Source: Gammaproteobacteria bacterium (lineage in GTDB: Bacteria; Pseudomonadota; Gammaproteobacteria; Steroidobacterales; JABDKV01). Taken from it: a stretch of DNA of 64,000 bases. Position numbers and translations under genes: made by a program. The stretch is taken from positions 1-64,000 of the forward strand of contig JABDJB010000018.1 in NCBI GenBank assembly GCA_013003425.1, read 5' to 3'. The notes under the pieces were generated by a model that did no database searches, was not told the DNA's origin, and saw nothing but the letters and a program-made list of their open reading frames with translations. Positions 25,464-52,343 of this stretch are shown one piece after another. Within the stretch, counting starts at the first letter, position 1. Each line of letters starts with the position of its first letter.

Positions 25464-26105
25464 CTAGCGACTATCAGACAATGCGGTCATCGCAGCGCCG
25501 GCGAAATAGGCCAGCCAGAACAGCAGGCCCGCGAGCTTGGCGCTATCTTCATACAAGGTTCCAATTTGCCATGGGGATACCAGATCGACCAGTCCGGAGA
25601 TAGCAAAAAACACCAGCGCCGTCATGAGCAGCAGGGCATCCCTGGCCCGCAATCGCTGTCGGTATGCCACCAGCCACGCCCCAACCAGTACAGCATAGCC
25701 GGCTACGACCGCCTCCTCAGGCAGGCCGAAATGCGGCAGCACACTCTCGTGCAGCAAAAAAGCATCGTCAATCCCGAGCAGCAGGCTCAATGCACCGGCT
25801 GACAGGAAAAACGACCAAACCCGCGCGCCAGCCGAGGCGCGGTTCAGGACAGCGGCGGCCAGAAAACAGATAGCCGCCGAACCTGCCCAAAGGAAGATAC
25901 CGATCTGTGACAGAAACCCGATATAAGGCGGTCCTTTCAGCACCGCTGTCGGGTCGCGTGTCAGCCTGCCAAAAGGCTCATCCCAGCCAAGGTGAACCAC
26001 GATTGTCGACCCTATCAGCCCGACTGTGACCAGCAAGACTACCAGGGTAATTCGAAGAATCGGCACCCATCCTTGTCCTGCCGTTCCTCGAGACTCAGTG
26101 GTCAT
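25464..26105 (-). CDS. Polytopic membrane protein of unknown function
   Basis: From the ATG at 26105 the 213-residue product has about six hydrophobic helices (for example ILRITLVVLLVTVGLIGSTI, AAICFLAAAVL, LVFFAISGLVDLV). GIDDAFLLHESVLPHFGLPEE carries several acidic residues and a histidine beside a helix, which resembles membrane enzymes of the ceramidase/PAQR type only loosely; I do not assign a function. The start overlaps the oxygenase gene's stop by 11 bases (ATGACCACTGA), so the two are probably translationally coupled. An upstream in-frame start would add 18 residues with no sign of coding. Confidence 0.65.
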   Translation of the reverse strand: MTTESRGTAGQGWVPILRITLVVLLVTVGLIGSTIVVHLGWDEPFGRLTRDPTAVLKGPPYIGFLSQIGIFLWAGSAAICFLAAAVLNRASAGARVWSFFLSAGALSLLLGIDDAFLLHESVLPHFGLPEEAVVAGYAVLVGAWLVAYRQRLRARDALLLMTALVFFAISGLVDLVSPWQIGTLYEDSAKLAGLLFWLAYFAGAAMTALSDSR

Positions 26106-26901
26106 CCGCAGAGAAATCCCTGTAAAGCGTGACGAAGCCGGAATAGCGACCCTCGGCACTGTCCTGCCGAAACGGGCGCGTTGGGTCGATCTCGGTTACG
26201 CCGTGCATGGTGCGGGTGTCATAGACGAGGATATCGCCCAACTCGGCATGCTCTTCATAATAGTGACGTATGCCATCACGCTCAAAATAGCCGCCACCGA
26301 ACACAAAGTCGTGATCCGGGCTACCGGACCCCTTCTTGCTCATCACGATTAGCGGCTGGAAGTAGGCCTCTCCACTCAATCCAAACTGTTCATAGATAGT
26401 CGGCACGTAGTCCTCCCGGTGCCTGCTCATGAAACCACCCCCGCGTGGATAGTGGTGTATGCGGGCCGCAGTCCAGAACCCGTCTTCTATGCGATCTATC
26501 GCAAAATCCAGCTCGAACCCCATCAGTACATTGCGTAATCTCGCCGCTGCGCGAAACGGCTCACGCATCCCAAACAGATCCTCCGCAAACACCGGGTTGT
26601 AGTAAGTACGCAGGCACTGCGGGTGTGCGTTGTCCCGAAGTTCTCCACCGCCAACGGCAAACTTCTGGTGATTGTTGTAGAGATCCTGCGGCTTCTCCCC
26701 CGTCGCGGGGCAATCGTTGCCTACTAGCAGCGTCTCTTCAATGCGTCTTTTTGCTGCCCTTATGGTCTCCGGATCGATCAGGCCACGGACATTGACCACA
26801 CCGTGCTTCCGCCCGATATCCAGCAGCTGCACCTGGCCAAGCTGCTCCGGACGCTGTACCTCAAGGGTTATCGTGTCCAGCAGTTTCTTTGTCGTATCCA
26901 T
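26095..26901 (-). CDS. 2OG-Fe(II)-dioxygenase-like protein (copy A)
   Basis: The 268-residue protein has a jelly-roll-type pattern with H161-R-E163 (in IHHYPRGGGFMSRHREDY), H233 (TMHGVTEIDP) and an arginine near 252 or 261, which fits the metal H-x-[DE]...H and 2-oxoglutarate-binding Arg of Fe(II) oxygenases. YFQPLIVMSKK and GDILVYDTRTMHG support the phytanoyl-CoA-dioxygenase-like branch. Such enzymes hydroxylate or otherwise oxidise unactivated carbons, often in natural-product or nucleotide-sugar pathways. It is paralogous to the product of 29105-29872 and divergent from the ATP-grasp gene; the four genes between 26095 and 29872 read as one functional group. Confidence 0.68.
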   Translation of the reverse strand: MDTTKKLLDTITLEVQRPEQLGQVQLLDIGRKHGVVNVRGLIDPETIRAAKRRIEETLLVGNDCPATGEKPQDLYNNHQKFAVGGGELRDNAHPQCLRTYYNPVFAEDLFGMREPFRAAARLRNVLMGFELDFAIDRIEDGFWTAARIHHYPRGGGFMSRHREDYVPTIYEQFGLSGEAYFQPLIVMSKKGSGSPDHDFVFGGGYFERDGIRHYYEEHAELGDILVYDTRTMHGVTEIDPTRPFRQDSAEGRYSGFVTLYRDFSADDH

Positions 26902-27106
26902 AGCTGATTTGTCGTCTTCCCAGGATCCCTGGATTCTGGTTCTGGCTTATCGTTTCTGTGTAATTTAGCATTGTTCGCGCCACTCAGCAGAGTGGTGCCG
27001 GAAATTTTTATCAACACACAGAAACGCATCACGTTGTGTTTCATTCAAATTGAGATCACCTACCTCTCTCGGTGCGATAAAAAGTCGCAAGAGATTTAGC
27101 CGACGA

Positions 27107-28306
27107 ATGAGCAAGCAGCGATTAATGATCCTGGGCGGAGGCGTGCAACAGGCGGCTCTTTACCGGCGTGCCCTTGCCATGGGGCTGGAGGTATTCGGCG
27201 TGGATCCCGATCCCCGCTGTGCTTGTCGTGCGCTGGCCAATGGTTTCCATGTTGCCGACCTGAGGGATGAATCGACGCTGACAGAAATAGCACGGCGGAT
27301 TGGGATCGCCGGAGTGGTGACAGTGGCTGCAGACTATCCGGTGCAAGGGCTCGCCGCGATCGTCCATGCGCTGGGGTTACTGGGCCTGAGTCGCGAGACT
27401 GCGCTGGCCTGCACCGACAAGGCACGGATGCGGCAGACCCTGAATCAAGCTGCAATCGCCATCCCGGACTTTCAGATCTGCGAAGATCGCGCCGACGTCG
27501 ATACAATCCTGCAGGAAAGCCCCGACGGATTAGTGCTCAAACCAACAGGCGGTTCCGGCAGCAAAGGGGTTCGGTTCCTGCATTTCGGGACACCGGCACG
27601 CGATGTTTCGGCCGCGTTTCAGGAGGCTGCCGCTTTCAGTCAAAGCGGTCAGGTGCTGGCCGAGCAATATATAACAGGTCCTGAATACTCGGTAGAAGCT
27701 GTTAACGTCGATGGCGAACCCCACGTCATAGCCATCACCCGCAAACAGACCTCGGGCCCGCCGCACTTTGTAGAGACGGGGCACGATGTGCCGGCGTCGC
27801 TGAGTGCGGCTGAAAGCAGCGCGATCCAACAGTGTGCAAAGGGCGCAATTAATTCACTGGGCATTGTGAACGGCGCATCGCATACCGAGATAATTGTCGA
27901 TGGCGGCACACCGAAAATTATCGAAGTTGCGGCCCGCCTGGGAGGTGGCTATATCAACTCGGACCTGATACCGCTGGCAACCGGCGTGGATATGTTGGGT
28001 GCAGCCATCAATGTTGCGCTTGGCCGTACACCAGATCTTAGCGTGACACGAAACGCCGGGGCATCGATCCGGTTTTTCCAACCGCGAGCTGGTACAGTAC
28101 AGAAAATCGACCTGCGCGACGCCGTTGAGATACCTGGAGCCGTCAAAATAGACCCAATTCTCGCCGTCGGCGACCGGGTCAGCGAACTACGCGATTCGAG
28201 AGACCGTCGGGGCTTCGTGATTTCCATGGCTGCCAATCAGATCGAATCTGCCAGGATCGCGGAGCTCGTTGTGTCGACCGTCATCATCGAAACTACAGAC
28301 CCATGA
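27107..28306 (+). CDS. ATP-grasp family ligase
   Basis: A 399-residue carboxylate-amine ligase. MSKQRLMILGGGVQQAALYR is the pre-ATP-grasp domain with its glycine-rich turn. VLKPTGGSGSKGV (about 143-155) is the ATP-binding strand and loop, followed by LAEQYITGPEYSVEAV and, near 280-300, IIEVAARLGGGYINSDL, where the Glu and Asn ligate magnesium. The family joins a carboxylate, activated as acyl phosphate, to an amine or thiol. The ATG at 27107 is preferred because the family fold starts there; the frame is open to 27050. The stop overlaps the next gene's ATG. Its substrate is unknown; the neighbouring aminosugar genes make an amide-forming step attractive. Confidence 0.85.
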   Translation: MSKQRLMILGGGVQQAALYRRALAMGLEVFGVDPDPRCACRALANGFHVADLRDESTLTEIARRIGIAGVVTVAADYPVQGLAAIVHALGLLGLSRETALACTDKARMRQTLNQAAIAIPDFQICEDRADVDTILQESPDGLVLKPTGGSGSKGVRFLHFGTPARDVSAAFQEAAAFSQSGQVLAEQYITGPEYSVEAVNVDGEPHVIAITRKQTSGPPHFVETGHDVPASLSAAESSAIQQCAKGAINSLGIVNGASHTEIIVDGGTPKIIEVAARLGGGYINSDLIPLATGVDMLGAAINVALGRTPDLSVTRNAGASIRFFQPRAGTVQKIDLRDAVEIPGAVKIDPILAVGDRVSELRDSRDRRGFVISMAANQIESARIAELVVSTVIIETTDP

Positions 28307-29100
28307 AGTTCTTCGACTCTCTCATCCATGTACAGCCAGACGGCGGGTGGCTTAATAACAAAGACGATTCGGGCATCGACCGATTGTTGCAGGACATCGA
28401 CGGCCGCGACTATCGGGCCTGTCTGGTAGCAATCGCCGGGTATCAACGCAACGAAGACCTGGTTACGTTATCGATGCAGCATCCGGAATTGTTCGTACCG
28501 ATTGCCGGCTTCAATCCAGTGGCGTATGACAGCACCGCTGAGCGCCAAAGCGCACTGACAAGCCTGGCCGCTACCGGTTTTCCCGGTATCAAGCTGCACC
28601 CGCGCCTGAATGAGTATGATCCCCTGGATCCATGCTGCCTGGAGACCATTGAGTACGCCGGCCAGGCGGGACTGATCGTGTTTCTGGATACTTTGTTTCG
28701 CCAGAAAGGCCGGGTTACGGCGTACGCGCCAGACGTCGTCGATCGCATTGTCAATGACTGTAATCCTCAACGCCTGGTTTTACTGCATGGCGGCGCCTCG
28801 TCCCTGCTGGATATGTTTGAGATGGTCCGAATGCACGAAAACCTGATTCTGGATCTTTCTTTCACGCTGATGCGTTATGCGGGCAGTTCACTCGACCAGG
28901 ACCTGGCCTTTGTCTGTCGCGAGCTTGATCAAAGGGTGGTTGTTGGTTCTGACTATCCTGAGTATCTGCCGAGCGATGCACGCCAGCGAATCGGGACGTT
29001 GATGGACGGGCTGCCGTTAGCAAAACGTGAAAACGTGCTCTACGCTAACCTGGAGCGACTGTTCGCTGGCTGGGGCGGATTAAAGAGCAACCGGATCTGA
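28303..29100 (+). CDS. Amidohydrolase-like (TIM-barrel) protein
   Basis: The 265-residue product follows the amidohydrolase_2 pattern: an N-terminal metal strand FFDSLIHV, GIKLHP (K97, H99), LVLLHGG (H162) and VVVGSDYPE (D217). In the first motif the usual D-x-H-x-H reads D5-S-L-I-H9, so one of the two histidines is missing, while the rest of the metal site appears intact. Related proteins hydrolyse or decarboxylate ring and amide substrates. ATG overlaps the ATP-grasp stop (ATGA) and the oxygenase gene begins four bases after its stop, so this is the middle of a tight operon. Confidence 0.72.
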   Translation: MKFFDSLIHVQPDGGWLNNKDDSGIDRLLQDIDGRDYRACLVAIAGYQRNEDLVTLSMQHPELFVPIAGFNPVAYDSTAERQSALTSLAATGFPGIKLHPRLNEYDPLDPCCLETIEYAGQAGLIVFLDTLFRQKGRVTAYAPDVVDRIVNDCNPQRLVLLHGGASSLLDMFEMVRMHENLILDLSFTLMRYAGSSLDQDLAFVCRELDQRVVVGSDYPEYLPSDARQRIGTLMDGLPLAKRENVLYANLERLFAGWGGLKSNRI

Positions 29101-29104
29101 AACT

Positions 29105-29872
29105 ATGCGTGCTCGTAACGTACACGAGGCTGAAAACATCGATAACCTTATCCGGAATGACGCCTGGCTCACCGAAGCCCGTGCTGGCATTGCGGAAGGC
29201 GACGTCTATATCGTGCGTGCTGTGCTGGACAAGTCACTCCTTTCCAACATTCGCAGTTATCTGACAACAGTTGGTGGCAGTTCGCTGCCAAATTACCACC
29301 CGATTGCGGTCGGAGCACCAAATTCACATCGGCTCAACAAGTGGGACCCGCGCTCGTATGTTCGTGGCTGCTTTCACCAGTTTGTCTTTTATCCGTGGAA
29401 TGAGGATGCGTTCGGGCTTTTTGCGCTGTCGAGGGCCGTTTACCAGCTGAAAAACAGCCTCGGCGGACTGGATCCGGATCGGTTCCTTGCTCCCACGCCG
29501 GATGATGGTTGCATTGCCCGCATAGCATTTCAGTATTACCCGTCTGGCGGCGGCGCACTTAACAAGCACACGGACCCGGTCGATTATCACCAGCTCACGG
29601 TTCCCACCACGCTACTCAGCGCAAAAGGTGAATCGTTTGCGCAAGGCGGCGCATACGCAATTTTGCAAAACGGTGAGCAATTGATGCTGGACGACCTGAT
29701 CGACCCGGGCGACGTCGTTTTCTTCAATGCATCAGTCGAACATGGTGTTGCTCCGGTTGATCCTGACGTACCGATGAACTGGCTGGATTTTCGCGGACGC
29801 TGGATGATGCTGTTTTCAGTCAACCGGCTCGCTGACAATGCCGGGATCGGCAACTCGACCGACCTCGGGTGA
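29105..29872 (+). CDS. 2OG-Fe(II)-dioxygenase-like protein (copy B)
   Basis: The 255-residue protein shows H155-T-D157 (YYPSGGGALNKHTDPVDY), H213 (FFNASVEHGVAPVDP) and R230 or R232 (LDFRGRWMML), the facial triad and co-substrate arginine expected of 2OG oxygenases. YPSGGG...H.D and H.V..VDP align with YPRGGG...H.E and HGV.EIDP of copy A at 26095, so the pair are paralogues; overall length and order are the same. It follows the amidohydrolase-like gene by four bases in the same operon. Substrate unknown; a glycan or sugar-linked acyl group is inferred from location. Confidence 0.72.
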   Translation: MRARNVHEAENIDNLIRNDAWLTEARAGIAEGDVYIVRAVLDKSLLSNIRSYLTTVGGSSLPNYHPIAVGAPNSHRLNKWDPRSYVRGCFHQFVFYPWNEDAFGLFALSRAVYQLKNSLGGLDPDRFLAPTPDDGCIARIAFQYYPSGGGALNKHTDPVDYHQLTVPTTLLSAKGESFAQGGAYAILQNGEQLMLDDLIDPGDVVFFNASVEHGVAPVDPDVPMNWLDFRGRWMMLFSVNRLADNAGIGNSTDLG

Positions 29873-29876
29873 TCCG

Positions 29877-30797
29877 GTGAGCTCGAAATGGGCCCGGCTG
29901 GGCCGTTTGATTGCACCTGATCAGGCTATTGACTGGATGACGACCCATACCGGGGCCTGCGCAGCAGCAGCCTCGACGGTTCCGGGGCGTTACGACCTGT
30001 ATGTCAGCGGGCGGGACAAGCAGAACCGCTCGCGTATTGGCCGACTGACCCTCGACCTGACGGGGGAAGATCCGACAATTACGGAAATACGCCGGGAACC
30101 GGTCCTCGAGCTTGGTGAGCTTGGAGCATTTGACGACAATGGCACGTCCTATCCGTGCGTGGTGGAGAGTGACAACAGTCGTTACCTGTATTACACCGGC
30201 TGGACTCCGTCCGTGACAGTACCTTTTCAGAATCATCTCGGACTGGCGCGGGAGTCTTCCCGCGACTGCTTCAAACGAATGTCGCGGGCACCGATACTCC
30301 ATCGCACCAACGAAGATTTCTCGTCGATCGGCTCAGTCCTGGTGCTGCGAATCGAGGACTCATGGCGCATGTGGTACACCGCGTTTTGCGGCTGGCACGA
30401 ACTGGGCGGTACTGCCCGGCACAGGTACGAAATCAAATACGCCAGTTCAAGTGACGGAATTGCCTGGCACCGGGATGACACCACCTGCATAGCAGGTACC
30501 GGTCCGGATGAGCACTCAATCTGCCGGCCGGCCATTTATCGTGACAAGGCTGGCTATCACATGATCTACAGCATCCGTGGGCGTCATTATCGCCTCGGGT
30601 ACGCGATTTCGCGCGACGGTATTACCTGGGAACGACGCGACGAGGAGCTGGAGCTCTGCGGTGAGTTGCAGGAATGGGAAAACAAAAGTCAGTGTTACCC
30701 ATGGGTCATCGAGTACGGCTCCACACGCTACTTACTTTACTGTGGCAACGACTATGGGCGTGGCGGTCTCGGCATAGCCCGGCAGGACATCAGCTAG
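29877..30797 (+). CDS. Beta-propeller glycosidase-like protein (GH43/GH32 fold)
   Basis: The 306-residue product is built of repeated short blades with W- and Y-rich strands: SYPCVVESDNSRYLYYTGW, IKYASSSDGIAWHRDD, ICRPAIYRDKAGYHMIYS, LGYAISRDGITWERRD and NKSQCYPWVIEYGSTRYLLY. That is the five-bladed propeller pattern of GH43/62/32/68/117-type proteins; repeated [IL]GYA.S.DGI.W motifs are typical. It has no signal peptide, so it is cytosolic, which suggests a role in nucleotide-sugar or repeat-unit tailoring rather than degradation outside the cell. I prefer GTG 29877, four bases after the preceding stop, over an ATG at 29838 inside the oxygenase gene. It overlaps the stop codon of the convergent WecF-like gene. 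Confidence 0.62.
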   Translation: MSSKWARLGRLIAPDQAIDWMTTHTGACAAAASTVPGRYDLYVSGRDKQNRSRIGRLTLDLTGEDPTITEIRREPVLELGELGAFDDNGTSYPCVVESDNSRYLYYTGWTPSVTVPFQNHLGLARESSRDCFKRMSRAPILHRTNEDFSSIGSVLVLRIEDSWRMWYTAFCGWHELGGTARHRYEIKYASSSDGIAWHRDDTTCIAGTGPDEHSICRPAIYRDKAGYHMIYSIRGRHYRLGYAISRDGITWERRDEELELCGELQEWENKSQCYPWVIEYGSTRYLLYCGNDYGRGGLGIARQDIS

Positions 30798-31969
30798 GCC
30801 GAGCGACGCAAAGCAGCGCGTCCCGCAAAAGTCTCCAGATCCCTTATACGCGCAATAGCTCTCTCACGACTCCAGTAGTCGCCGATAATCCTCGCATTCC
30901 TGCTGCCGGCAGGTTCATCGAAAAGTTTGCCGGTCGCCTGCTCGGTGAGGTCAACAATAGAATGAATTGCCACGCCCTGATCACAGAAGTAACGGAACAA
31001 TACACTGTCGGGCCTGAGGTACACGCGAGCGTGCTTTGTAAGTGCAGCACAGATAGTGCCGATTGCCTGTTGCCTTATGTGGTTCATGACCACCGTACCG
31101 CAGTCTTTGATCTGTTCGTTAAACTCCTCGACGGTGAGGAAATCACGCAGTGGTACGAATGCATCACCCAGCATTTCTGCGCCAAGTTTACAAACCCGAT
31201 CTGAATAATCTTCATTGCCATAGCTCAGTGGCGTTATTACCCGCCGGCCGCGTAGATCCAGTTTCCGCAGTACATCGAATGCCTCGACATGATTATTCGT
31301 CGGAGTAGCCGAATTACCAAGGAGCACATCGGGACCGGACATTCGCACGGGTCCAGGCGCAAACGTATTCTCTGTTGTGTAGTACTGCAGCAGATGATGC
31401 TGTGGGTCAAAATCAGTGAGCACCTCTCGCAGCCGCGGCAAGTCCAGGATATTGACACTGGCGACATCAATTCGACTTGCTATGTCACGCAACGCCGCCA
31501 CGGTCGGGGAACCACCGCGCACGCGCTTTGCCAGCCGTCGGAACAATTCATTAAAACGCAGTCCTTTCAGCGAAGTCGTGAGTCGAGACGACAGATGCAG
31601 CCGACGACTTGCGTCGAGGACAACCTCACCATGACGTTCAATCAGCAGCGGTGCGTATTCCTGCCCCCAGGCGCTCCAAACCACCAGCTTCCGCTCCGGG
31701 ATCTTTTCGAACATGCTCGCAAATTCCGGGCGTATTGAATGAAAAACAACGCAATCGCAGGCAGCCAGATCCTCATTGACCATGGCCGAAGAAAAGTATC
31801 CCGCATCGACGGCAGACAGGTGATCATTGGTCTCACAGTGCACCAGGCGCCCTGCTCCGCCAGGGAGCACGCGAAACTTGTTTTGCGTCGGATAAGCCGC
31901 CTCAAACAGGTCACGTTGCAGCGGTATAAACTTGTCGTCGGGCGCTATATGAAGGATGTTAAACGACAC
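30794..31969 (-). CDS. GT56-family transferase, WecF-like (TDP-Fuc4N(Ac) transferase)
   Basis: The 391-residue protein has the hallmarks of GT56: VVWSAWGQEY near residue 97-105 and VLLGNSATPTNNHVEAFDVL near 215-234, followed by VITPLSYGNEDY. In WecF the corresponding parts are W.W.G.(D/E) and the GNS.D.(N/S)NH motif. WecF transfers Fuc4NAc from TDP to the lipid-linked Man-Glc chain of enterobacterial common antigen. Here, next to WecE and away from the rest of an ECA locus, it more likely adds Fuc4N (or a derivative) to the EPS unit. It lies six bases downstream of wecE on the same strand. Confidence 0.78.
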   Translation of the reverse strand: MSFNILHIAPDDKFIPLQRDLFEAAYPTQNKFRVLPGGAGRLVHCETNDHLSAVDAGYFSSAMVNEDLAACDCVVFHSIRPEFASMFEKIPERKLVVWSAWGQEYAPLLIERHGEVVLDASRRLHLSSRLTTSLKGLRFNELFRRLAKRVRGGSPTVAALRDIASRIDVASVNILDLPRLREVLTDFDPQHHLLQYYTTENTFAPGPVRMSGPDVLLGNSATPTNNHVEAFDVLRKLDLRGRRVITPLSYGNEDYSDRVCKLGAEMLGDAFVPLRDFLTVEEFNEQIKDCGTVVMNHIRQQAIGTICAALTKHARVYLRPDSVLFRYFCDQGVAIHSIVDLTEQATGKLFDEPAGSRNARIIGDYWSRERAIARIRDLETFAGRAALRRSA

Positions 31970-31974
31970 GGCAT

Positions 31975-33108
31975 TCAGGGCTGGAAGTCCAGAATAGCCT
32001 CGATCACATCATCCTGGTCACGCTGACTCATGGCGGTATAAAACGGTAACCGGATCAGGCAATCGCTGATGCGATCAGTAACCGGACATTCCGCGACAAT
32101 GTTCGATCGCAAAGCGTACTCTGACCGGTGCAGAGGCAGGTAATGAAAGACAACGTGTATGCCCCGCTGAGTCATGTGTTCAATGAATGCGCTACGGGTC
32201 TGCTCTGAAGGCATGATGAGATAGTACAGGTGCCATGCCTGTTCGCAGTGTTCCGGAACATAGGGTTGCTGCACACTGTTAGAGCTTGCCCATGAGCTCA
32301 ATTGCTCGTGGTAACACTGCCAGATTTCCCGTCGTCGTTGCTGAATTTCACGCCATTTTTCGAGCTGGCCATAGAGAAATGCGGCGAGCACATCGCTCAT
32401 CACATAACTACTGCCAACTTCCAGCCACGAGTATTTGTCTACTTCGCCACGAAAAAAACTTGCCCGGTTAGTACCCTTTTCCCGGATAATTTCTGCCCGG
32501 GTTACCAGGTCCGGGGCATTGACCAGCAAGGCCCCACCTTCACCGCAGGTGATGTTCTTGGTTTCGTGGAAACTCTGCGTGCCCAGAGCGCCGAATGTAC
32601 CCAACGGGCGTCCGTGGTAGCGGGCAAACAGTCCATGAGCATTGTCTTCCACCACCGCAATGCCATGATTCTCTGCAATTGTGCAGATGTCGTCCATTTC
32701 ACAACCAACACCGGCGTAATGCACCGGAACTACAGCCCTGGTGCGCTCCGTGACATGAGCTTCGAGCTGCCGTTCGTCCAGGTTCAGGGTGTCTGACCTG
32801 ATATCGCAAAATATGGGGCGCGCGCCTCGCAACACAAATGCGTTTGCCGTCGACACAAAGGTAAACGACGGCATTATTACTTCGTCGCCGGGCTGAATGT
32901 CCAGCAACAGCGCCGCGATCTCAAGCGCATGCGTGCACGACGATGTGACGAGCACCTTGGGGACATCGAGTTCGCGTTCCAGCAAGTTCTGGCACTTGCG
33001 TGAAAAAGTCTGGTCGCCTGCGATCTCGCCGGAGGACACGGCCTGTGAGATATATTCAATCTCACTCCCCTGCAGCGACGTGCGGTTGAAACCGATCCGG
33101 TATTTCAT
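31975..33108 (-). CDS. wecE: dTDP-4-amino-4,6-dideoxygalactose transaminase
   Basis: The 377-residue PLP enzyme belongs to the DegT/DnrJ/EryC1 (StrS) aminotransferases and most resembles WecE/RffA: RIGFNRTSLQGSEIEYISQA, VTSSCTHALEIAALLL, VVEDNAHGLFARYHGR with D155, and HETKNITCGEGGALL with the Schiff-base lysine K184. It converts TDP-4-keto-6-deoxyglucose plus glutamate to TDP-Fuc4N. The acetyltransferase WecD, which makes Fuc4NAc in enteric bacteria, and the rml genes for the precursor are absent from this window. Downstream is the GT56 transferase; upstream, 193 bases without a gene. Confidence 0.85.
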   Translation of the reverse strand: MKYRIGFNRTSLQGSEIEYISQAVSSGEIAGDQTFSRKCQNLLERELDVPKVLVTSSCTHALEIAALLLDIQPGDEVIMPSFTFVSTANAFVLRGARPIFCDIRSDTLNLDERQLEAHVTERTRAVVPVHYAGVGCEMDDICTIAENHGIAVVEDNAHGLFARYHGRPLGTFGALGTQSFHETKNITCGEGGALLVNAPDLVTRAEIIREKGTNRASFFRGEVDKYSWLEVGSSYVMSDVLAAFLYGQLEKWREIQQRRREIWQCYHEQLSSWASSNSVQQPYVPEHCEQAWHLYYLIMPSEQTRSAFIEHMTQRGIHVVFHYLPLHRSEYALRSNIVAECPVTDRISDCLIRLPFYTAMSQRDQDDVIEAILDFQP

Positions 33109-41663: not shown

Positions 41664-42971
41664 TTAGCCGCGGACGGGCAGCGCGGGTTCGCCGAGGATG
41701 CAGGTCTGGTATACCAGCCGGTCGTCACCGAGGATCATCATGGCAAACAGCTGCGCGGCAAGAGTATCGGCGTGGTTGAGTCGTTGCTGGAGTACCGGTG
41801 ATGCTGCCGGATCGAGAACGACAAAATCCGCTTCTTTGCCCGCCTCAAAATTCCCGATTCGATCATCGGCACACAATGCCTTTGCCGCGCCAAGCGTCGA
41901 CAGGTACAACGCACGCAGCGGCGACAGGGGCTGCCCGCGCAGCTGCAGCACCTTGTAGCCATCAGCAATTGTGCGAAGCATGTTCAGGCTGGTGCCACCG
42001 CCGACGTCCGTTCCGAGGCCGACGTTTATTCCTGCCAGGTCTGCGCGATTGAAGTCAAACAGTCCGGAACCGAGAAAAAGGTTGGAAGACGGGCAAAAGG
42101 CCATGGCGGCACCATCCTCCGCCATTGCGCTGACCGCTGCATCCTCGAGGTGCAGGCAGTGCGCATAGATAGAACGTTCACGCATCAGGCCGGCATGACG
42201 ATACACGTCGACATAGCTGGATTGTGCGGGAAACAGCCGGTCGACCCAGGCAACCTCCGCCTTGCTCTCGGCCAAATGGCTGTGCACATACACATCCGGG
42301 AACTCCTCTGCCAGCTGCCCGGCCGCAGTGAGTTGCTCTGGCGTTGAAGTCGGCGCAAACCGTGGGGTGATCGCATACTGCAACCGGTCCTGGTTATGCC
42401 AGCGCTCCAGCAGCGTGCGGCTGTCACGATAGCCGGCTTCGGCGCTGTCACGCAGCTCTTCAGGGCAATGCCGGTCCATCAGCACCTTGCCGGACCACAG
42501 CCGCATGCGACGCGCCCTGGCCGCAGTGAAAATGGCATCGACTGATTCAGGGTGCACGGTGGCAAAGACCATGGCCGAAGTGGTGCCGTTGGCCAGCAGT
42601 CCGTCGAGAAACCGGCTGGCCGTGTCGGCGGCCAGTTCGGCATCGGCAAAACGGGCTTCAGCCGGATAGGTGTAGGTATTGAGCCAGTCCAGCAGCCGCT
42701 CGCCGTAGGAGGCGATAATATCCAGCTGCGGGTAATGCACATGGCAGTCTATGAAACCAGGCAAAATCCACTTGTCTTTATAATGGGTTAGCTCATATTC
42801 CTCAGACAGATTCTCGCCAAGGGATTCGGCCCGGCCGAGTGCTTCTACGTGCCCATCGCGCACCAGCAGCAAACCGTCTTCCAGGTACTCCAGCGCTGCC
42901 GGATCGGACAACGGTCCGGGATTGGCGAGGCAGTGCACCACCCTGCCGCGGAACGCACGCAAGCCGCTCAT
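41664..42971 (-). CDS. guaD: Guanine deaminase
   Basis: The 435-residue amidohydrolase converts guanine to xanthine and ammonia. ILPGFIDCHVHYPQLD carries the metal H-x-H and matches the guanine deaminase variant [IV]PGF[IV]D[CT]H.H. TPRFAPTSTPE, HSHLAESKAEV, YAHCLHLED and GLGTDVGGGTSLNM give the remaining His and Asp ligands and the GTD[VI]GGG substrate motif. It is the last gene of the purine operon; its ATG overlaps the allA stop by four bases. The stop codon lies in the closing hairpin of the repeat field. Confidence 0.95.
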   Translation of the reverse strand: MSGLRAFRGRVVHCLANPGPLSDPAALEYLEDGLLLVRDGHVEALGRAESLGENLSEEYELTHYKDKWILPGFIDCHVHYPQLDIIASYGERLLDWLNTYTYPAEARFADAELAADTASRFLDGLLANGTTSAMVFATVHPESVDAIFTAARARRMRLWSGKVLMDRHCPEELRDSAEAGYRDSRTLLERWHNQDRLQYAITPRFAPTSTPEQLTAAGQLAEEFPDVYVHSHLAESKAEVAWVDRLFPAQSSYVDVYRHAGLMRERSIYAHCLHLEDAAVSAMAEDGAAMAFCPSSNLFLGSGLFDFNRADLAGINVGLGTDVGGGTSLNMLRTIADGYKVLQLRGQPLSPLRALYLSTLGAAKALCADDRIGNFEAGKEADFVVLDPAASPVLQQRLNHADTLAAQLFAMMILGDDRLVYQTCILGEPALPVRG

Positions 42972-43444
42972 GCTGGCCCCACCAGGGTCAAAACTTCAGC
43001 CAGCCGGTGCTCCTCGCAGTTGGCTTCCTCGCCGTGACGCTCGATCAGGAGAAACTGCTGCCCGGCCGTGGCAATCATTGGCATGTGCCAGGTACCGCGG
43101 CGGTAGACAATGCCCTGGCGTCCGTTGGTGACGAAAGCCCGGGGCTCACCGGGCTGTTCGCCCGCGGCGACTACCACCACAAAAGAAAAACCGGTCAGCG
43201 GTACAAAAGCCTGGCTGCCAAGCGGGTGACGCTCGAGAACGCCAATCTCATACGGCAGCGGCGTGGTTTCCTGGCAGGTCACGACATCGATGCGCGCCTG
43301 GCCGGGCGGAGCCAGGTCCAGCGTCGCCTGAGCCAGCGACCGGGCGAAGCGTCCGTCGTTCATCGGTGAGGTGCTGTCGGTTTCAATTACCTGGCCGAAC
43401 GGCTCGAAGGCCTCACGCGTCAGCGGTTGTGGTGTCAGGTTCAT
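42968..43444 (-). CDS. allA: Ureidoglycolate lyase
   Basis: The 158-residue enzyme splits (S)-ureidoglycolate into glyoxylate and urea. PLTREAFEPFGQVIE opens the cupin fold, and YRRGTWHMPMIA gives the W-H-x-P/M motif of the family; PLTGFSFVVVVA and the LLIERHGEEANCEEH tail fit as well. Starting at ATG 43444 it overlaps the alc stop by four bases. Longer in-frame starts on this strand run into alc and are not supported. It completes the pathway to glyoxylate within this operon. Confidence 0.93.
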   Translation of the reverse strand: MNLTPQPLTREAFEPFGQVIETDSTSPMNDGRFARSLAQATLDLAPPGQARIDVVTCQETTPLPYEIGVLERHPLGSQAFVPLTGFSFVVVVAAGEQPGEPRAFVTNGRQGIVYRRGTWHMPMIATAGQQFLLIERHGEEANCEEHRLAEVLTLVGPA

Positions 43445-44427
43445 GCCCGGCGCCCGTAGAGTCGCAGGCGGCTGACACCACCGTCCGGAATAATACGCAT
43501 GCGCACGTGGGTCACCGCGCCACACTGCTGCAACTGGTCGAAGTGGTGCCGGCTGTCCGCCTGGATTTTTGTTTCCGGCAGCAGCGCCTGCCAGGTTACG
43601 TCAGCGCGCGCCAGGTCAGAAGGATCCGGCTGCGCCTCTACACAGATCGCATCGATCGCTACCCGATCAGGATAATTGCCCTTGAAATGCGCCGTGTCGA
43701 CTTCGATACGGTTAACGGTACCGCGACAACCGAGCGCCAGTATTACCCAGTCGTTACCGCCGTCCCTGCGTCGGGCAGTCTCCCACCCGTCGCCCATGTT
43801 GATACCACGTCCGGGAAAAACCAGGTTATGCATGCTGCCGTAATGTTCATCACTGCAGGCAACAGCGCGGCCGCCACAGGCCAGCGCCAGCAGGTCAATT
43901 TCACTGTCATCGAAGGCAGCCGGATCGACACAGACTTCACCAAACAACCGCAGTCGTGCAACACCACCGTCGGGGTAGATATGAAAACGCAGGTGCGTCA
44001 CAGCCTCGTCTGGCGCGATCGGCACGAAGTGTTGTGTATCGCCCTGCAGCGTCGTGCGCGGCAGTAATTCATGCCATTGTTGATCTTCCTGCGGGATATC
44101 TTCTGTGCACTGGCAGCCTTCCAGTGAGGCCTGCGGTGGAAAATTTCCTGTGAAGTGCCGGGTGTCGATTTCCACGCCATGCAGGATGCCGGACACGCCG
44201 AGCTTTATCACACAGTAATCATGCCCGGGCTCGCGCCGGCGGCGGCTTTCCCAACCGTCCATCCACTTGCCATGGTCATCGTACTTGTCGGGTACGAAGG
44301 CAGGCTCAGCCGGCTCAATCAATCTTTCCTTGGCAGCAAAGAAATCATCGGTTGCATAGACCACGCGCGTGCCCAGGCGCGGCTGTTCCAGCCGGATCCA
44401 CTGGCGAAAAGGGTTGCTTTCAGGCAC
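43441..44427 (-). CDS. alc: Allantoicase
   Basis: The 328-residue protein consists of two tandem jelly-roll repeats, each with a DGWE[ST].R signature (MDGWESRRRREPGHDY near residue 50 and MGDGWETARRRDGGNDW near 215), a D[TR].HF[TK]GN[FY]P motif, and a PDGGV[AS]RLR.[FY]G strand. It hydrolyses allantoate to ureidoglycolate and urea. I take the GTG at 44427, whose GTGCCTGA overlaps the uraD stop and leaves the family's NPFRQWIRLEQPRLG start; the longer frame overlaps uraD. It lies between uraD and allA as expected from the pathway. Confidence 0.93.
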   Translation of the reverse strand: MPESNPFRQWIRLEQPRLGTRVVYATDDFFAAKERLIEPAEPAFVPDKYDDHGKWMDGWESRRRREPGHDYCVIKLGVSGILHGVEIDTRHFTGNFPPQASLEGCQCTEDIPQEDQQWHELLPRTTLQGDTQHFVPIAPDEAVTHLRFHIYPDGGVARLRLFGEVCVDPAAFDDSEIDLLALACGGRAVACSDEHYGSMHNLVFPGRGINMGDGWETARRRDGGNDWVILALGCRGTVNRIEVDTAHFKGNYPDRVAIDAICVEAQPDPSDLARADVTWQALLPETKIQADSRHHFDQLQQCGAVTHVRMRIIPDGGVSRLRLYGRRA

Positions 44428-44935
44428 GGCCGGCGATTTCCTGCAGGCGCAGCCGGGCAATCCTGTGTATCTCGGCCATGGCGTTTTCGAATTCCGCTTC
44501 CGGCGCATTTTTCAGACGACGGCTGAAGACATCCAGCACCTGCTGCCTGCTGGCGCCCTTTACCGCCAGGATGAACGGGAAACCGAACTTTTCCCGGTAA
44601 GCGGCATTAAGCTCCCGCAACTGTTCCAGCTCATCTTCACCGCACTGATCGAGCCCGGCGCTGGCCTGCTCATCGGCAGATTCCGCCGTCAGCTCACCAG
44701 CCAGCGCGGCACGTCCGGCCAGCTCCGGGTGTGCCCTTATCAGCTCCAGCTGCTGTTCACGTTCGGCCTCGTTAACGATCGCCGCCAGTTTAGCCGCGAG
44801 CTTGTCTACTTCGCCGCTGAGTCTGCCGCGTTGCCACAACAGCTCGGCAATCCAGGGCGAATTCTCATAAACCCCGCCAAAAGTTGCCAGGAACGTCTGC
44901 TCATTCATGTCGTGCGGATTGTGCCGAAAATACAT
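44420..44935 (-). CDS. uraD: OHCU decarboxylase
   Basis: The 171-residue helical enzyme converts 2-oxo-4-hydroxy-4-carboxy-5-ureidoimidazoline (OHCU) to (S)-allantoin. Diagnostic motifs are FLATFGGVYENSPWIAE, LIRAHPELAGRAA (active-site His and Asp region) and NAAYREKFGFPFILAVKG. ATG 44935 follows AAGGA with eight bases spacing at the very end of puuE, which is a good start; a longer N-terminal reading overlaps puuE and a later ATG at 44908 lacks a site. It sits between allantoinase and allantoicase. Confidence 0.93.
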   Translation of the reverse strand: MYFRHNPHDMNEQTFLATFGGVYENSPWIAELLWQRGRLSGEVDKLAAKLAAIVNEAEREQQLELIRAHPELAGRAALAGELTAESADEQASAGLDQCGEDELEQLRELNAAYREKFGFPFILAVKGASRQQVLDVFSRRLKNAPEAEFENAMAEIHRIARLRLQEIAGRA

Positions 44936-44939
44936 CGTG

Positions 44940-45851
44940 TCAGTCCTTGTCGTACGGGTGATGGGCAATCCAGTGCCGGGCGATATCAATGCGTGTTGCC
45001 AGCCAGACCTTTTCCTTGCTGTTTACATAGTCGAGAAATTTTTCTACTGCCAATGCCCGTCCCGGGCGACCGGCCAGTCGGCAGTGCAAACCGACCGACA
45101 TCATCTTCGGTTGCTGCTTACCTTCCTGGTACAGGCAATCAAAGCTGTCCTTGAGATAGCTAAGAAAATCGTCGCCCGTATTAAAGCCCTGCGCGGTAGC
45201 AAAGCGCATGTCATTGGCATCGAGCGTGTACGGCATCATCAGCTGCGGCTTGCCATGGTTCAGGTCCCAGTACGGCAGGTCGTCGGCATAGCTGTCAGCG
45301 TTGTAGACAAAACTGCCCTCCTCGCCGACGATTTGATGGGTATTGGGACTGCAGCGCCCCAGGTACCAGCCGTTCGGCGGGCTTCCGGTAACCCGGGTGT
45401 GAATGTCGACGGCTTTTCGCAGGTGCTCGCGCTCGGTTGCCTCGTCGACAAACTGGTAATCGATCCAGCGATAGCCGTGACTGGCAATTTCCCAGCCGGC
45501 CTCCTGCATTGCCCGGACGGCCTGCGGATTTCGCTGTAATGCCATTGCCACGCCAAATACCGTCACGGGAACCTCGCGGCTGCTTAACACCCGATGCAGG
45601 CGCCAGAAGCCCGCGCGTGCGCCATATTCGTACAGCGACTCCATATTCATATGGCGGGTGTTTTCGTAAGGTTCCGCACCAACAATTTCCGACAGGAACG
45701 CTTCTGACTCGTTATCGCCATGCAGCACACAACGCTCGCCGCCCTCTTCGTAATTGACGACGAACTGCAGCGCCAGCCGGGCACCGCCGGGCCACTTTAC
45801 GCTCGGCGGGTTGCCGCCATAGCCAACCAGATTTCGCGGGTAATCGTTCAT
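44940..45851 (-). CDS. puuE: Allantoinase, PuuE type
   Basis: This 303-residue protein is a polysaccharide-deacetylase-fold allantoinase that uses no metal of the classical amidohydrolase type and is unrelated to AllB. RNLVGYGGNPPSVKWPGGAR, NYEEGGERC, EIASHGYRWIDY and LPYWD fit PuuE, and the Trp-Tyr-Leu-Gly-Arg site near 165 (GWYLGRCSPNT) is another family mark. It hydrolyses (S)-allantoin to allantoate. Its ATG overlaps the puuD stop by four bases. Confidence 0.93.
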   Translation of the reverse strand: MNDYPRNLVGYGGNPPSVKWPGGARLALQFVVNYEEGGERCVLHGDNESEAFLSEIVGAEPYENTRHMNMESLYEYGARAGFWRLHRVLSSREVPVTVFGVAMALQRNPQAVRAMQEAGWEIASHGYRWIDYQFVDEATEREHLRKAVDIHTRVTGSPPNGWYLGRCSPNTHQIVGEEGSFVYNADSYADDLPYWDLNHGKPQLMMPYTLDANDMRFATAQGFNTGDDFLSYLKDSFDCLYQEGKQQPKMMSVGLHCRLAGRPGRALAVEKFLDYVNSKEKVWLATRIDIARHWIAHHPYDKD

Positions 45852-47041
45852 TGATCCAGACCTGCGTACCAGTGTGCAATGACGGCCCGTTCGGCTTCCG
45901 TGATCTGCGTCAGGTTACCGATGGGCATCGCCCGCAGCACCACCACCTGCTGGTAGATCCGCTCGGCTTCAGCCTCGATCTGTGCAACGGTCTCCAGCAC
46001 CACCCCGCCCGGTGCCGCAGCAAAACCGGGATAGCTCGGCATCGCCGCATGACAACCGGCACAACGGCTGTACATGACTTGCTTTACCTCGGCGATACCG
46101 GTCACCGGAAGCTGCGTTGCTGTTTTGGCGGGCGCTTGTGGCGCTATGGCCGCCGCCACTCCCGCCAGAATAAAAACGGCGACAACCAGTGGCAGCGGCG
46201 ACGCCTTGCCCTTGTGCCGGGCGACGAAGAAAACCCGGATCAATGCACCGGCCGCAGAGATGGCAATCAACACCAGCCAGTTGTACGCATGGCTGTAAGT
46301 CATCGCATAGTGATTACTGATCATGACAAACAGCACTGGCAGCGTGAAATAGGTGTTGTGCACGGACCGCTGCTTGGCGGTGATACCAGGACGCGGATCC
46401 ACTGCCTCGCCGCGTTCTGCCGCGCTGACCATGCGTCGTTGCCCGGGAATGATGATAAAGAACACGTTGGCAACCATGATGGTGCCCAGCATCGCGCCAA
46501 AATGTATGAACGCACCGCGGCCGCTGAAAACCTGGCACAGGCCAAAGGCCGCAACCACTGCCAGAGCTGCCACAGCCACACCGAGCAACCGGTCATTCCG
46601 GGCCAGAGCCGAGCGGCACATCAGGTCGTACAACAACCATCCGCCGGCGATAACAGCAGCGCTGATGCTAATTGCCGCAGCCTGCGACAGTGCCATCCTG
46701 CTGTTGTCGATCAGGTAAACATCGGCGCTCCACCAGTACAGCAGCACCAGCAGGAACATGCCGGAAAGCCAGGTGGTGTAGGCCTCCCACTTGAACCAGT
46801 GCAGCGTTTCCGGCAGCTGTTCCGGAGCCACGCGATACTTCTGCGCGTGATAAAAACCGCCACCGTGCACCGACCACAGTTCGCCACCAACGCCGCGATC
46901 AGCATCGCCGTCACGCGCCGGTGGCTTCAGGTGATTGTCCAGCCAGACAAAATAAAACGACGAGCCCACCCAGGCGATACCGGCAATGAAATGCAGCCAG
47001 CGCCCCAGCAGACTGAGCCACTCGACGACATAGGCGCTCAA
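45848..47041 (-). CDS. puuD: Membrane-bound urate hydroxylase with C-terminal cytochrome c (PuuD)
   Basis: PuuD oxidises urate to 5-hydroxyisourate and passes electrons to a cytochrome chain rather than forming H2O2 as soluble uricase does. The 397-residue product has an N-terminal membrane portion (WLSLLGRWLHFIAGIAWVG and several later helices, with conserved histidines such as LHF and GGGFYHAQKY) and a C-terminal haem c domain with CAGCH near residue 325 and a distal Met region. It begins at TTG, which forms TTGA with the xdhC stop. A long frame on the opposite strand of the same region is a by-product of codon bias and not a gene. Confidence 0.92.
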   Translation of the reverse strand: MSAYVVEWLSLLGRWLHFIAGIAWVGSSFYFVWLDNHLKPPARDGDADRGVGGELWSVHGGGFYHAQKYRVAPEQLPETLHWFKWEAYTTWLSGMFLLVLLYWWSADVYLIDNSRMALSQAAAISISAAVIAGGWLLYDLMCRSALARNDRLLGVAVAALAVVAAFGLCQVFSGRGAFIHFGAMLGTIMVANVFFIIIPGQRRMVSAAERGEAVDPRPGITAKQRSVHNTYFTLPVLFVMISNHYAMTYSHAYNWLVLIAISAAGALIRVFFVARHKGKASPLPLVVAVFILAGVAAAIAPQAPAKTATQLPVTGIAEVKQVMYSRCAGCHAAMPSYPGFAAAPGGVVLETVAQIEAEAERIYQQVVVLRAMPIGNLTQITEAERAVIAHWYAGLDQ

Positions 47042-48105
47042 AGTTGCGCCCGCCGCTTGTCGTGTTGCAATTGAGTGCCTGCAGCGACCCGTTCACGCAA
47101 CTGCAGCAACTGCGCCGCAACTGCGACAGCGATCTCGCCCGGTCGCTTGCCGCTAATGCCGTCGATGCCAATCGGACAGGTCAGTCGCGCGAGCTGCTGC
47201 TCATCGATACCCATGCGGCGCAGGCGCTTTTCGAACTGGCGCCGCTTGGAACGCGAGCCAATCAGCCCGCAATAGGCGATGTTGTCGCGCTGCAGGACAC
47301 GCGCGCAGATATCCAGATCGATGGCATGACTGTGGGTCATGACCACGTAGCACGCACCGGAGCCAATCTGCTCAACCGCCGTCGCCGGCTCGGCGGTTTC
47401 TATAGTCGTGACATTCTCCGGCAGTCGTGTCGGAAATATTCCCTCGCGATTATCTACCCAGCTCACCTGGCACGGCAGGGCCGCCAGCGTGGCCACCAGT
47501 GCCGAGCCAACGTGCCCGGCGCCAAAGACCACGATCTGAAAGCGAGTCTGGTGCAATGGCTCGAACAGGGCCGGTACCTGCAGGTTACCCGCCCGTGACA
47601 CCGTGGTGCGCAGAGCAGGCGCCTGCTGCCGGATGATGTCGTCGGCTACCTGTTGCACCGGATCATCGCTCGCCGCGCCACTCTCGCTGTTACAAACAAC
47701 ACGCCGGGTAATTCCGGTGCGGGTATCGCCAGTTGTCACCAGCACGGCGGGTTCAGCGCGCACCAGTGCCGCCTCCACCGCATCGATCCAGTCCGCCTCG
47801 GCAGGATGAACCTGGTCAAAGCGCACTTCGGCGACGCCGCCGCTACACTGGCCGCAATCGGCACCGAGCGTAAACGTGCGGCTGAAAGTTTCCGGCTGCT
47901 GCGGCTGGCACAACCACTTTGCGGCAATTGCCGTGCATTCATGCTCGAGCTGACCGCCGCCTATAGTCCCGGAAATGCTGTCAGCAGTGACAAACATTTT
48001 TGCGCCGGTCTCGCGTGGCGTCGAACCACGCGTATTGCTGACGGTTACGACGACAAACGGTTCTCCGTTTTGCTTCAGTTGCACCAGCTGTTGTGGCCAG
48101 TTCAT
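47038..48105 (-). CDS. xdhC: Xanthine dehydrogenase accessory protein XdhC
   Basis: The 355-residue protein binds molybdenum cofactor and helps the sulfurated form enter XdhB. N-terminal NGEPFVVVTVSNTRGSTPRE and GAKMFVTADSISGTIGGGQL are the XdhC_CoxI domain; the second half has a Rossmann fold, VVFGAGHVGSALVATLAALP, followed by YCGLIGSRSKRRQFEKRL and ICPIGIDGISGKRPGEIAVA-like sequence. It overlaps xdhB and puuD by four bases each, so it is co-translated with them. Confidence 0.93.
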   Translation of the reverse strand: MNWPQQLVQLKQNGEPFVVVTVSNTRGSTPRETGAKMFVTADSISGTIGGGQLEHECTAIAAKWLCQPQQPETFSRTFTLGADCGQCSGGVAEVRFDQVHPAEADWIDAVEAALVRAEPAVLVTTGDTRTGITRRVVCNSESGAASDDPVQQVADDIIRQQAPALRTTVSRAGNLQVPALFEPLHQTRFQIVVFGAGHVGSALVATLAALPCQVSWVDNREGIFPTRLPENVTTIETAEPATAVEQIGSGACYVVMTHSHAIDLDICARVLQRDNIAYCGLIGSRSKRRQFEKRLRRMGIDEQQLARLTCPIGIDGISGKRPGEIAVAVAAQLLQLRERVAAGTQLQHDKRRAQL

Positions 48106-50402: not shown

Positions 50403-51849
50403 AGTTGTACAGCCGCTGCTCGACCTCGCCAGCGGTCTCGTGCAAAAACTTCAGCAACAGGTTCTGGCACACCTGCAGGCGATAGCCTGCGCTGGCACGC
50501 ATGTCGGTAATCGGGCTGAAATCGCGCGCCAGCGCCTGCACACCGTTTTCCGCCGTGGCCTGCGTCAACGCCGAACCGGTCAGCGCCTGCTCGGCGGCCG
50601 GTGCCCGTGACGGTATTGCCGCCACGCCGCCAAAACCGAAACGCGCCTCGCTGATCACCCCGTGGACAATGTCAATACTGAAAGCTGCGCAAACGGCCGA
50701 GATATCCTGGTCGAAACGCTTGGAAACCTTGTAGGCACGAAACTGCTGTTGCGGCCGCGGCATCGGGATACGAATACGTTCGAGAAATTCGCCCGGCTGC
50801 AGATCCGTTTGCCGGAAACCGGGATAAAACTGATCAATCGCGACTTCTCGTGTTGTCTCGCCGCGGCGCAGAACCAGCACGGCTCCGAGCGCAATCAGCG
50901 CCGGCATCGAATCCCCGATGGGCGAACCGTTGGCAATGTTGCCACCGACCGTTGCGGCGTTGCGTATCGGCGGCCCGGCAAAGCGTCGCAGCAACTCGTC
51001 CAGGGCCGGATATATTTCGAGCAGCGCCGGCATGGCGTCGCTAAAAGTCACCGCCGCACCAAGCTCCAGGTGCATTTGCGACTTATTAATCTGCTGCAGC
51101 TCGCGAACCTGGCCGAGATAAATCAGCTGTGGCAGCTCGCGGTGCTCTTTTGTGACCCAGAGTCCGACATCGGTGCCGCCGGCCAGCAGCTGCGCTTCCG
51201 GATGTTCGGCTACCAGGGCAGCAAGTTCGGCCAGCGTGGTCGGGGCGAAGTAGCTGTGGCCTGCCGCGGCCAGTTCGACCGGCGCATGCTGCAGACCCTG
51301 CAAGGCTGTTACCAGGGTTTTCTCGTCGCGGTCCGGTCGCGGCAACTTGTACATGGCCCGTGCCGCGGCAACGATCGGCCGGTAACCCGTGCAGCGGCAC
51401 AGGTTGCCGGCTAAGGCGTCGTCTATCTCCACACGTCCCGGCGAGGAGTTTTCTTCGTAAAGTGCATACAGCGACATGACAAAGCCTGGTGTGCAAAAAC
51501 CGCACTGCGAGCCGTGCTCGTCAACCATCGCCTGCTGTACCGGGTGCAGGCTGCCGTCGCTTTCACTCAGGCTTTCAGTGGTGAGCAGGGCTTTGCCGTC
51601 GAGCGTGGCAAGGAACTGGATACATGAATTGATGGCCTGGTAACGCAGCCCGCTGCCGTTGTTGTCGAGTTCGGCAACAACCACCGCACACGCTCCGCAA
51701 TCGCCCTCGGCGCAACCTTCCTTGGCGCCGGTACGCCGCCGATCCTCACGCAACCATTGCAGCACGGTGCGGTTGGGGTCGAAATCCCGCAGCTGGATAA
51801 CTTCGCCATCGAGCAGGAAACGGATGCTGTTACGAGCCTGCTGATGCAT
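50392..51849 (-). CDS. xdhA: Xanthine dehydrogenase Fe-S/FAD subunit
   Basis: The 485-residue small subunit combines two [2Fe-2S] domains and an FAD domain. C46, C51, C54 (GCAEGDCGAC) and C76 hold the plant-ferredoxin-like cluster; C116, C119 (QCGFC) and C151, C153 (NLCRCTGY) hold the second. FAD-binding begins near residue 195 (LLAGGTDVGLWVTKEHR) and FAGPPIRNAATVGGNIANGS is the second FAD motif. Electrons pass from the molybdenum site to NAD+. It follows uraH by seven bases and overlaps xdhB by eleven. Confidence 0.95.
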   Translation of the reverse strand: MHQQARNSIRFLLDGEVIQLRDFDPNRTVLQWLREDRRRTGAKEGCAEGDCGACAVVVAELDNNGSGLRYQAINSCIQFLATLDGKALLTTESLSESDGSLHPVQQAMVDEHGSQCGFCTPGFVMSLYALYEENSSPGRVEIDDALAGNLCRCTGYRPIVAAARAMYKLPRPDRDEKTLVTALQGLQHAPVELAAAGHSYFAPTTLAELAALVAEHPEAQLLAGGTDVGLWVTKEHRELPQLIYLGQVRELQQINKSQMHLELGAAVTFSDAMPALLEIYPALDELLRRFAGPPIRNAATVGGNIANGSPIGDSMPALIALGAVLVLRRGETTREVAIDQFYPGFRQTDLQPGEFLERIRIPMPRPQQQFRAYKVSKRFDQDISAVCAAFSIDIVHGVISEARFGFGGVAAIPSRAPAAEQALTGSALTQATAENGVQALARDFSPITDMRASAGYRLQVCQNLLLKFLHETAGEVEQRLYNYGR

Positions 51850-51856
51850 GCCTGTT

Positions 51857-52198: not shown

Positions 52199-52343
52199 CG
52201 GTATCACTTGCGGTTCAGGGCGTAATAGCTTGATATTAAATGACTTACATCTGATTAACCAGCCGCAGCCGGTGGTTTGGGGCATTACGGCGGGAAGCGG
52301 TCTAGAATCTGCCGCTGGTTTTGACTGCCGGAGAAGAAAAACC
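52199..52343. promoter_or_regulatory. Divergent promoter region of the purine operon and adenosine kinase
   Basis: These 145 bases separate uraH (minus) from the adenosine kinase (plus), so both promoters and any operator must lie here. The segment 52222-52260 is clearly AT-rich, and TAGAAT at 52303-52308 is a fair -10 for the plus strand, 36 bases before the GTG, but with no -35 at standard distance. No dyad is obvious. Confidence 0.35.

Follow-up and report, generated by a model that had tools for sequence, protein, structure and literature searches.

We analyzed positions 1 to 64,000 of contig JABDJB010000018.1 (GenBank assembly GCA_013003425.1) from a gammaproteobacterium of the order Steroidobacterales, 64,000 nucleotides that are called the window below, and within it a set of seven genes for which a preliminary description of the sequence had proposed a role in the decoration of an amino sugar. 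All seven open reading frames (ORFs) were recovered at 26095-33108. They are denoted here by letters: A and E for the oxygenases, C for the ATP-grasp protein, D for the amidohydrolase, F for the propeller protein, G for the GT56 transferase and H for WecE.

26095..26901, minus strand: A, a second oxygenase of the E family, divergent to the C-D-E-F operon; HRE...H...R replaces HxD...H...R
26902..27106: divergent intergenic region of 205 bases between A and the C-D-E-F operon, read from the sequence
27107..28306, plus strand: C, predicted ATP-grasp amide ligase, L-amino-acid-ligase-like, with LAL_C2 (Pfam/NCBIfam, PDB profile)
28303..29100, plus strand: D, amidohydrolase-2 TIM barrel of the lactonase/decarboxylase branch (Pfam over cut-off, structure model)
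29105..29872, plus strand: E, putative iron/2-oxoglutarate (Fe/2OG)-type oxygenase and marker gene of the module (invariant motif residues)
29877..30797, plus strand: F, GH130-like five-bladed propeller, no signal peptide seen (structure model)
30794..31969, minus strand: G, GT56-like (WecF-like) glycosyltransferase, divergent (PF07429)
31975..33108, minus strand: H, WecE, dTDP-4-keto-6-deoxyglucose 4-aminotransferase (PRK11706, TIGR02379)

Genes C, D, E and F form a tight plus-strand operon, beyond which G and H lie on the minus strand. As had been described, C and D share four bases (ATGA) and a gap of four bases separates D from E. The ORF list starts F at the ATG at 29838, inside gene E; an in-frame GTG at 29877, four bases past the stop of E, agrees better with the starts of F relatives and is most likely the true start. 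The divergent paralogue of E, gene A, proved to be real: the two proteins share 26% identity in BLAST (E-value 5e-15), and their profiles match with a probability of 99.6% (E-value 1e-23). A membrane protein with no family match over cut-off is encoded at 25464-26159; it shares its strand with A, whose end it overlaps by 65 bases.

One scan of a genome collection was made with peptide patterns derived from E aligned with its Pseudoroseomonas relative, and was blind to all other genes. It returned 21 loci, a lower bound as the patterns were built from two sequences, in 12 phylum-level groups: Cyanobacteriota, Verrucomicrobiota, Chloroflexota, Melainabacteria, Acidobacteriota, Pseudomonadota, Bacteroidota, Bdellovibrionota, Omnitrophota, Planctomycetota, Nitrospirota and Actinomycetota. 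Neighborhoods were compared by gene calling and clustering, and gene content was counted in the 15 loci that were non-redundant and 15 kb or longer, 14 from the scan and one from a Pseudoroseomonas plasmid. C and D were present in all 15, and F and WecE in 13 each, the WecE count including one broken or partial frame (L027). The set thus keeps company with amino-sugar genes, the opposite of what the preliminary description had named as a refuting observation, and its conservation in 12 phylum-level groups strongly supports the earlier proposal of a single sugar-decoration module beside WecE. Two Halomonadaceae loci (L029 and L039) have the full seven-gene set of the window, that is, GT56, WecE, C, D, E, F and A. 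Gene order differs between loci while gene content is retained, a pattern that speaks for a shared pathway and not for a single recently copied block. Organism labels of single loci may be wrong, many being metagenome-assembled genomes; the named isolates Hyella, Halomonas, Litchfieldella and Pseudoroseomonas suffice alone to carry the recurrence.

No relatives of C were found in 97 close genomes and none of D in 369 genomes of the class, so that the module was not inherited in this lineage and acquisition by transfer fits; nor was this WecE found in the genus relatives. The GC content of the module does not stand out. Among 397 sampled Pseudomonadota one other genome had E, probably the Litchfieldella genome already in the set. 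Judged by these sequence comparisons, the set is a conserved and probably mobile module of five to seven genes.

Other genes vary from locus to locus. An ArnC/PgfS-like transferase occurs in 13 loci, methyltransferases in eight, PhyH oxygenases and 4-hydroxy-2-oxovalerate-aldolase-like enzymes in five each, and a small EamA transporter in two. The aldolase-like enzymes, one of which is encoded in the Pseudoroseomonas module, are of an acid-building kind and fit a custom-made acyl group.

Three further families were seen in the module loci. A family of about 660-780 aa recurs at L031:8376-10532, L036:12167-14320, L037:4185-6524 and L040:13570-15564; its L031 member, the one scanned, matched nothing in Pfam or NCBIfam. 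In three modules (L024:7616-8641, L030:13007-13948, L033:13003-13971) the aldolase-like gene is followed by a member of an unannotated family of about 320 aa, and for the L033 copy there was no Pfam or PDB match and only a sub-threshold match in NCBIfam. A beta-lactamase-family protein (PF00144, tested on the Hyella copy) lies within the modules of Hyella (L023:5769-6872) and Litchfieldella (L039:8869-9885).

The WecE identity of H holds by two curated cut-offs, PRK11706 (552.7 bits, cut-off 375) and TIGR02379 (501.7 bits, cut-off 434.85), and this is the only WecE in the 3.26 Mb genome. G matches GT56 (PF07429, E-value 6e-10, 39.1 bits, cut-off 25) in its C-terminal half only and stays under the cut-offs of the NCBIfam WecF equivalog models. 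The reported absence of WecD extends to the whole assembled genome, in which the best match reaches 22.9 bits with a cut-off of 195.1.

C matches ATP-grasp_4 (E-value 2e-18, 67 bits, cut-off 27) and LAL_C2 (42.5 bits, cut-off 29.4), and its residues K105, K145, E186, E273 and R277 are invariant among 15 module copies. When a profile of these copies was searched against the PDB, BL00235 (E-value 9e-50) and BacD (E-value 2e-30) were outranked by a sole match, 4dim, named phosphoribosylglycinamide synthetase; by this profile, L-amino-acid ligases are the nearest solved relatives of C for which a ligase activity is named. The closest plasmid relatives (37-38% identity) are encoded in capsule loci, in Enterococcus hirae and Parabacteroides, adjoining genes for a DegT aminotransferase and a sugar transferase. 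The best NCBIfam model, PRK02186 (E-value 3e-64), describes a longer protein and is matched only via its N-terminal half. A fusion with argininosuccinate lyase was considered for C and rejected, as this model covers C through its ATP-grasp half only.

Loci that have F without C, D and E occur in rhizobia, Azospirillum, Ruegeria, Devosia and Bernardetia. In all seven such loci examined an acetyltransferase adjoins F, and five of them have an annotated DegT/rffA aminotransferase in the same stretch. These acetyltransferases have no relative in the loci with C, D and E, which suggests that the two are alternatives for capping the amine; on this pattern, the ATP-grasp set appears to replace N-acetylation. 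The amidation of the 4-amino group by C, as put forward in the preliminary description, thereby gains indirect support from three sides (the kinship with L-amino-acid ligases, the relatives in capsule loci and the replacement of an acetyltransferase).

Four of the plasmid loci with F (L010, L011, L013 and L014, from Rhizobium, Peteryoungia, Azospirillum and Bernardetia) have WbqC, a methyltransferase, an acetyltransferase and F in common and DegT/rffA genes in most cases, and represent an amino-sugar cluster that is related but has no ATP-grasp set. WbqC adjoining F in rhizobia hinted at glycyl-Qui4N; no paper on the function of WbqC was found.

In the oxygenases, H155, D157, H213 and R232 of E are invariant in 20 of 20 aligned copies, and the corresponding H161, D/E163, H233 and R252 of A are kept in four of four. 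The identity of E to the copies in other modules, which span the 12 phylum-level groups, is 43-55%, and that of A to the Halomonas and Litchfieldella copies is 49-53%. In the tree, E of the window groups with the two Halomonadaceae copies (support 80/92, a split that is not starred) and A with the Halomonadaceae copies of A (support 95/96, a starred split); the two genes form separate clades, which makes A an old paralogue and not the product of a local duplication. The motif, together with a weak match to PF13640, makes an Fe/2OG oxygenase function of E and A plausible. With the metal-ligand motifs intact, the action on the acyl or sugar part that had been ascribed to them is likewise left at plausible. 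The profiles of E and of PhyH proteins encoded in other loci did not match usefully (16.6%), and the hit of an E relative on the C-terminal domain of an N-formyltransferase (E-value 0.038) was judged to be due to chance.

A-type oxygenases were also seen beside flagellar genes. In Indioceanicola an A-type oxygenase, an ATP-grasp protein and WecE adjoin FlgK/FlgL. In L020 (NZ_CP030127.1, 2128-12707) genes for a GT41-like protein, a CADD/BesC-type haem-oxygenase-like oxidase, an ATP-grasp protein, a TylF-like methyltransferase, WecE and an oxygenase of the A type stand beside FlgK/FlgL-like genes, and by its gene content this locus is likely an island for flagellin glycosylation that holds another version of the module.

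D exceeds the Pfam cut-off for Amidohydro_2 (E-value 9e-11, 42.4 bits, cut-off 26.4), and its structure model has a TIM-barrel fold with a predicted local distance difference test (pLDDT) score of 93.4. The nearest solved structure is the uncharacterized 3irs (Z 26.7, 249 residues aligned, root-mean-square deviation 2.5), followed by 3cjp, by COG3618 amidohydrolases (Z 22) and by the pyrone hydrolase LigI (Z 20.9), with decarboxylases close behind. The HxH metal motif after strand 1 is incomplete, the first position being L, N or C in 16 of 16 copies and the second His invariant, and D5, H9, K97, H99, H162 and D217 are kept in all 16. A Streptomyces amidohydrolase matching D was dropped from consideration, since it sits in an acyl-CoA catabolic cluster.

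For F, the proposed GH43/GH32 identity gave way to another one: the structure model (pLDDT 91.3) is nearest to GH130 phosphorylases and to the GH137 protein BT_0996 (Z 29.5-29.7), and GH43 ranks lower (26.7). At the sequence level F stays below the cut-off of PF04041 (21.4 bits, cut-off 26), and its alignments to GH130/GH137 are shifted by blades and do not confirm the catalytic acid. Its identity to the copies in other modules is 37-53%.

Taken together, these data suggest that the module decorates a 4-amino-4,6-dideoxyhexose of the Fuc4N type in a surface polysaccharide, C amidating the 4-amine and E and A acting as oxidizing enzymes; we give this whole picture a probability of roughly 55%. 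WecE would provide the nucleotide sugar with its free 4-amine. C with ATP would convert a carboxylic acid, possibly an amino or hydroxy acid, to an acyl phosphate and join it to the 4-amine in place of WecD-type acetylation, and E and A would hydroxylate the acid or the acylated sugar by iron/2-oxoglutarate-type chemistry. D might prepare or trim the acid, for example by opening a lactone or removing a carboxylate, and F, a cytosolic protein, might bind or process the decorated sugar. The finished sugar would be transferred by GT56 here and by the ArnC-like transferase in most other loci. What the sequences show directly is the conserved linkage, the family memberships, the intact catalytic motifs and the exchange with acetyltransferases; we infer the substrates, the order of these steps and the parts played by D and F. 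The weaker claim, that we deal with an amino-sugar decoration module of some kind, is highly probable. The broader one stands at even odds: gene transfer would have carried to at least 12 phyla an undescribed route in which a dideoxy amino sugar receives, at its 4-amino group and through an ATP-grasp ligase, an acid that a new family of oxygenases oxidizes, with F and the non-canonical D serving synthesis and not breakdown.

Several observations weigh against this picture. WecE is not seen within the stretches of L031 and L036, nor F in those of L025 and L030, and other enzymes that could transfer acyl groups are present in some loci, an AAC-type acetyltransferase in L031 and L036 and a hexapeptide transferase in L035 and L037. 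Neither E nor A matches a Pfam family over cut-off (PF13640, 20.1 bits, cut-off 27; PhyH, 13.1 bits, cut-off 22), and sequence searches found no solved relative of either. Finally, RmlA, RmlB and RmlC are all missing over cut-off from the assembly to which the window belongs, which leaves the supply of dTDP-4-keto-6-deoxyglucose unaccounted for. The preliminary description had named TDP-Fuc4N as the product of WecE, and the supply of dTDP-Fuc4N is accordingly not demonstrated. RmlB and RmlC were found in one congener. The rml genes of the present genome possibly fall in an assembly gap: the assembly is 95.5% complete, and the window starts right at the edge of its contig. On the other side, RmlB exceeds the curated cut-off in all 21 module genomes but also in 10 of 14 control genomes, so that its presence alone is weak evidence for the picture; it adjoins the module in L029, L037, L038 and L039.

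The two loci without WecE also bear on another explanation, according to which C, D, E and A make and attach a substituent of a different residue of the polymer, for instance on a uronic acid carboxyl or an O-linked amino acid, while WecE and GT56 only supply a separate sugar of the repeat unit. ATP-grasp enzymes are linked to polysaccharide operons generally, and an ATP-grasp ligase has been noted within a modified-sugar operon (PMC4000134). We consider this explanation unlikely, as WecE alone among sugar-nucleotide enzymes keeps recurring alongside C, D, E and F over 12 phylum-level groups with different polymers, and the exchange with acetyltransferases points to an amine.

Still less probable is a protection cycle similar to that of the Arn pathway, in which C caps the amine, the sugar is transferred to undecaprenyl phosphate and D uncaps it, leaving a free amine in the final glycan. 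The frequent ArnC/PgfS-like transferase, the two EamA transporters and the membership of D in a hydrolase superfamily would all suit such a cycle, but the window and the two Halomonadaceae retain D though GT56 replaces the ArnC-like gene, D is closest to lactonases and decarboxylases and not to deacylases, and a temporary cap would make two oxygenases wasteful. That the four-gene operon makes a free small molecule, dipeptide- or siderophore-like, and lies in polysaccharide loci by accident is very improbable and strongly disfavored by the locus neighborhoods: LAL-type ATP-grasp enzymes do make dipeptides, and PRK02186 does match in part, but the operon is found again and again with WecE and glycosyltransferases in unrelated bacteria, which is far beyond chance, given that this genome has a single WecE.

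Elsewhere in the window, two similar pectate-lyase-like frames (4284-4910 and 6157-7701), the first one shorter, flank a glycosyltransferase and look like a partial duplication. A cluster for purine breakdown was recognized by eye at 41664-52555 (guanine deaminase, PuuE-like, urate oxidase-like, xanthine dehydrogenase and hydroxyisourate hydrolase), and a protein with several dockerin-like EF-hand repeats (DLNADGRIDLKDLAAL...) is encoded at 63210-63926.

Many O-antigens, flagellins and exopolysaccharides are known to contain N-acylated 4-amino sugars. To our knowledge, no genes have been assigned to several of the stranger N-acyl groups, such as hydroxylated and oxoproline-type acids, and no description of the present gene set was found in the open-licence literature on ATP-grasp enzymes, Fuc4N/Qui4N acylation, WecE, WbqC and flagellin. 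A five-gene core recurring from cyanobacteria to Halomonas offers a testable gene set for such decorations. It brings two oxygenase families without Pfam or solved-structure assignment and, if the suggested role is true, a glycosidase-like propeller as a biosynthetic partner; genome-based prediction of unusual surface sugars in uncultured phyla becomes possible.

The predicted product, an amide-linked and often hydroxylated acid on a dideoxy amino sugar, resembles those of the pathways for N-acylated Qui4N, Fuc4N and Qui3N, whose acyl groups in O-antigens and flagellins include N-acetyl, hydroxybutanoyl, malyl and 3-hydroxy-2,3-dimethyl-5-oxoprolyl (PMC3210612), while this gene combination was not described in the papers found. 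C shares with BL00235 and BacD the ATP-grasp fold with LAL_C2 and the invariant catalytic Lys, Glu and Arg, but has a polysaccharide-locus context and, as its predicted acceptor, an amino sugar instead of an amino acid. The capsule loci of Enterococcus hirae, Parabacteroides and Bacteroides plasmids likewise have an ATP-grasp gene beside DegT and a sugar transferase; no amidohydrolase, E-type oxygenase or propeller is annotated adjacent to it there. Many of the related loci resemble the Arn pathway (ArnC, ArnD, ArnE/F) in their ArnC/PgfS-like polyprenyl-phosphate transferase and EamA transporter, whereas the window has neither gene and the predicted acylation is by ATP-grasp and not by formyl transfer. 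F has the fold of GH130/GH137 propellers, but its sequence matches are out of register and its gene setting is biosynthetic, not catabolic. With the Fuc4NAc branch of enterobacterial common antigen synthesis (WecE-WecD-WecF) the module shares a WecE-type 4-aminotransferase and a GT56 (WecF-like) transferase; in place of WecD, its genome has an ATP-grasp protein, an amidohydrolase, two oxygenases and a propeller.

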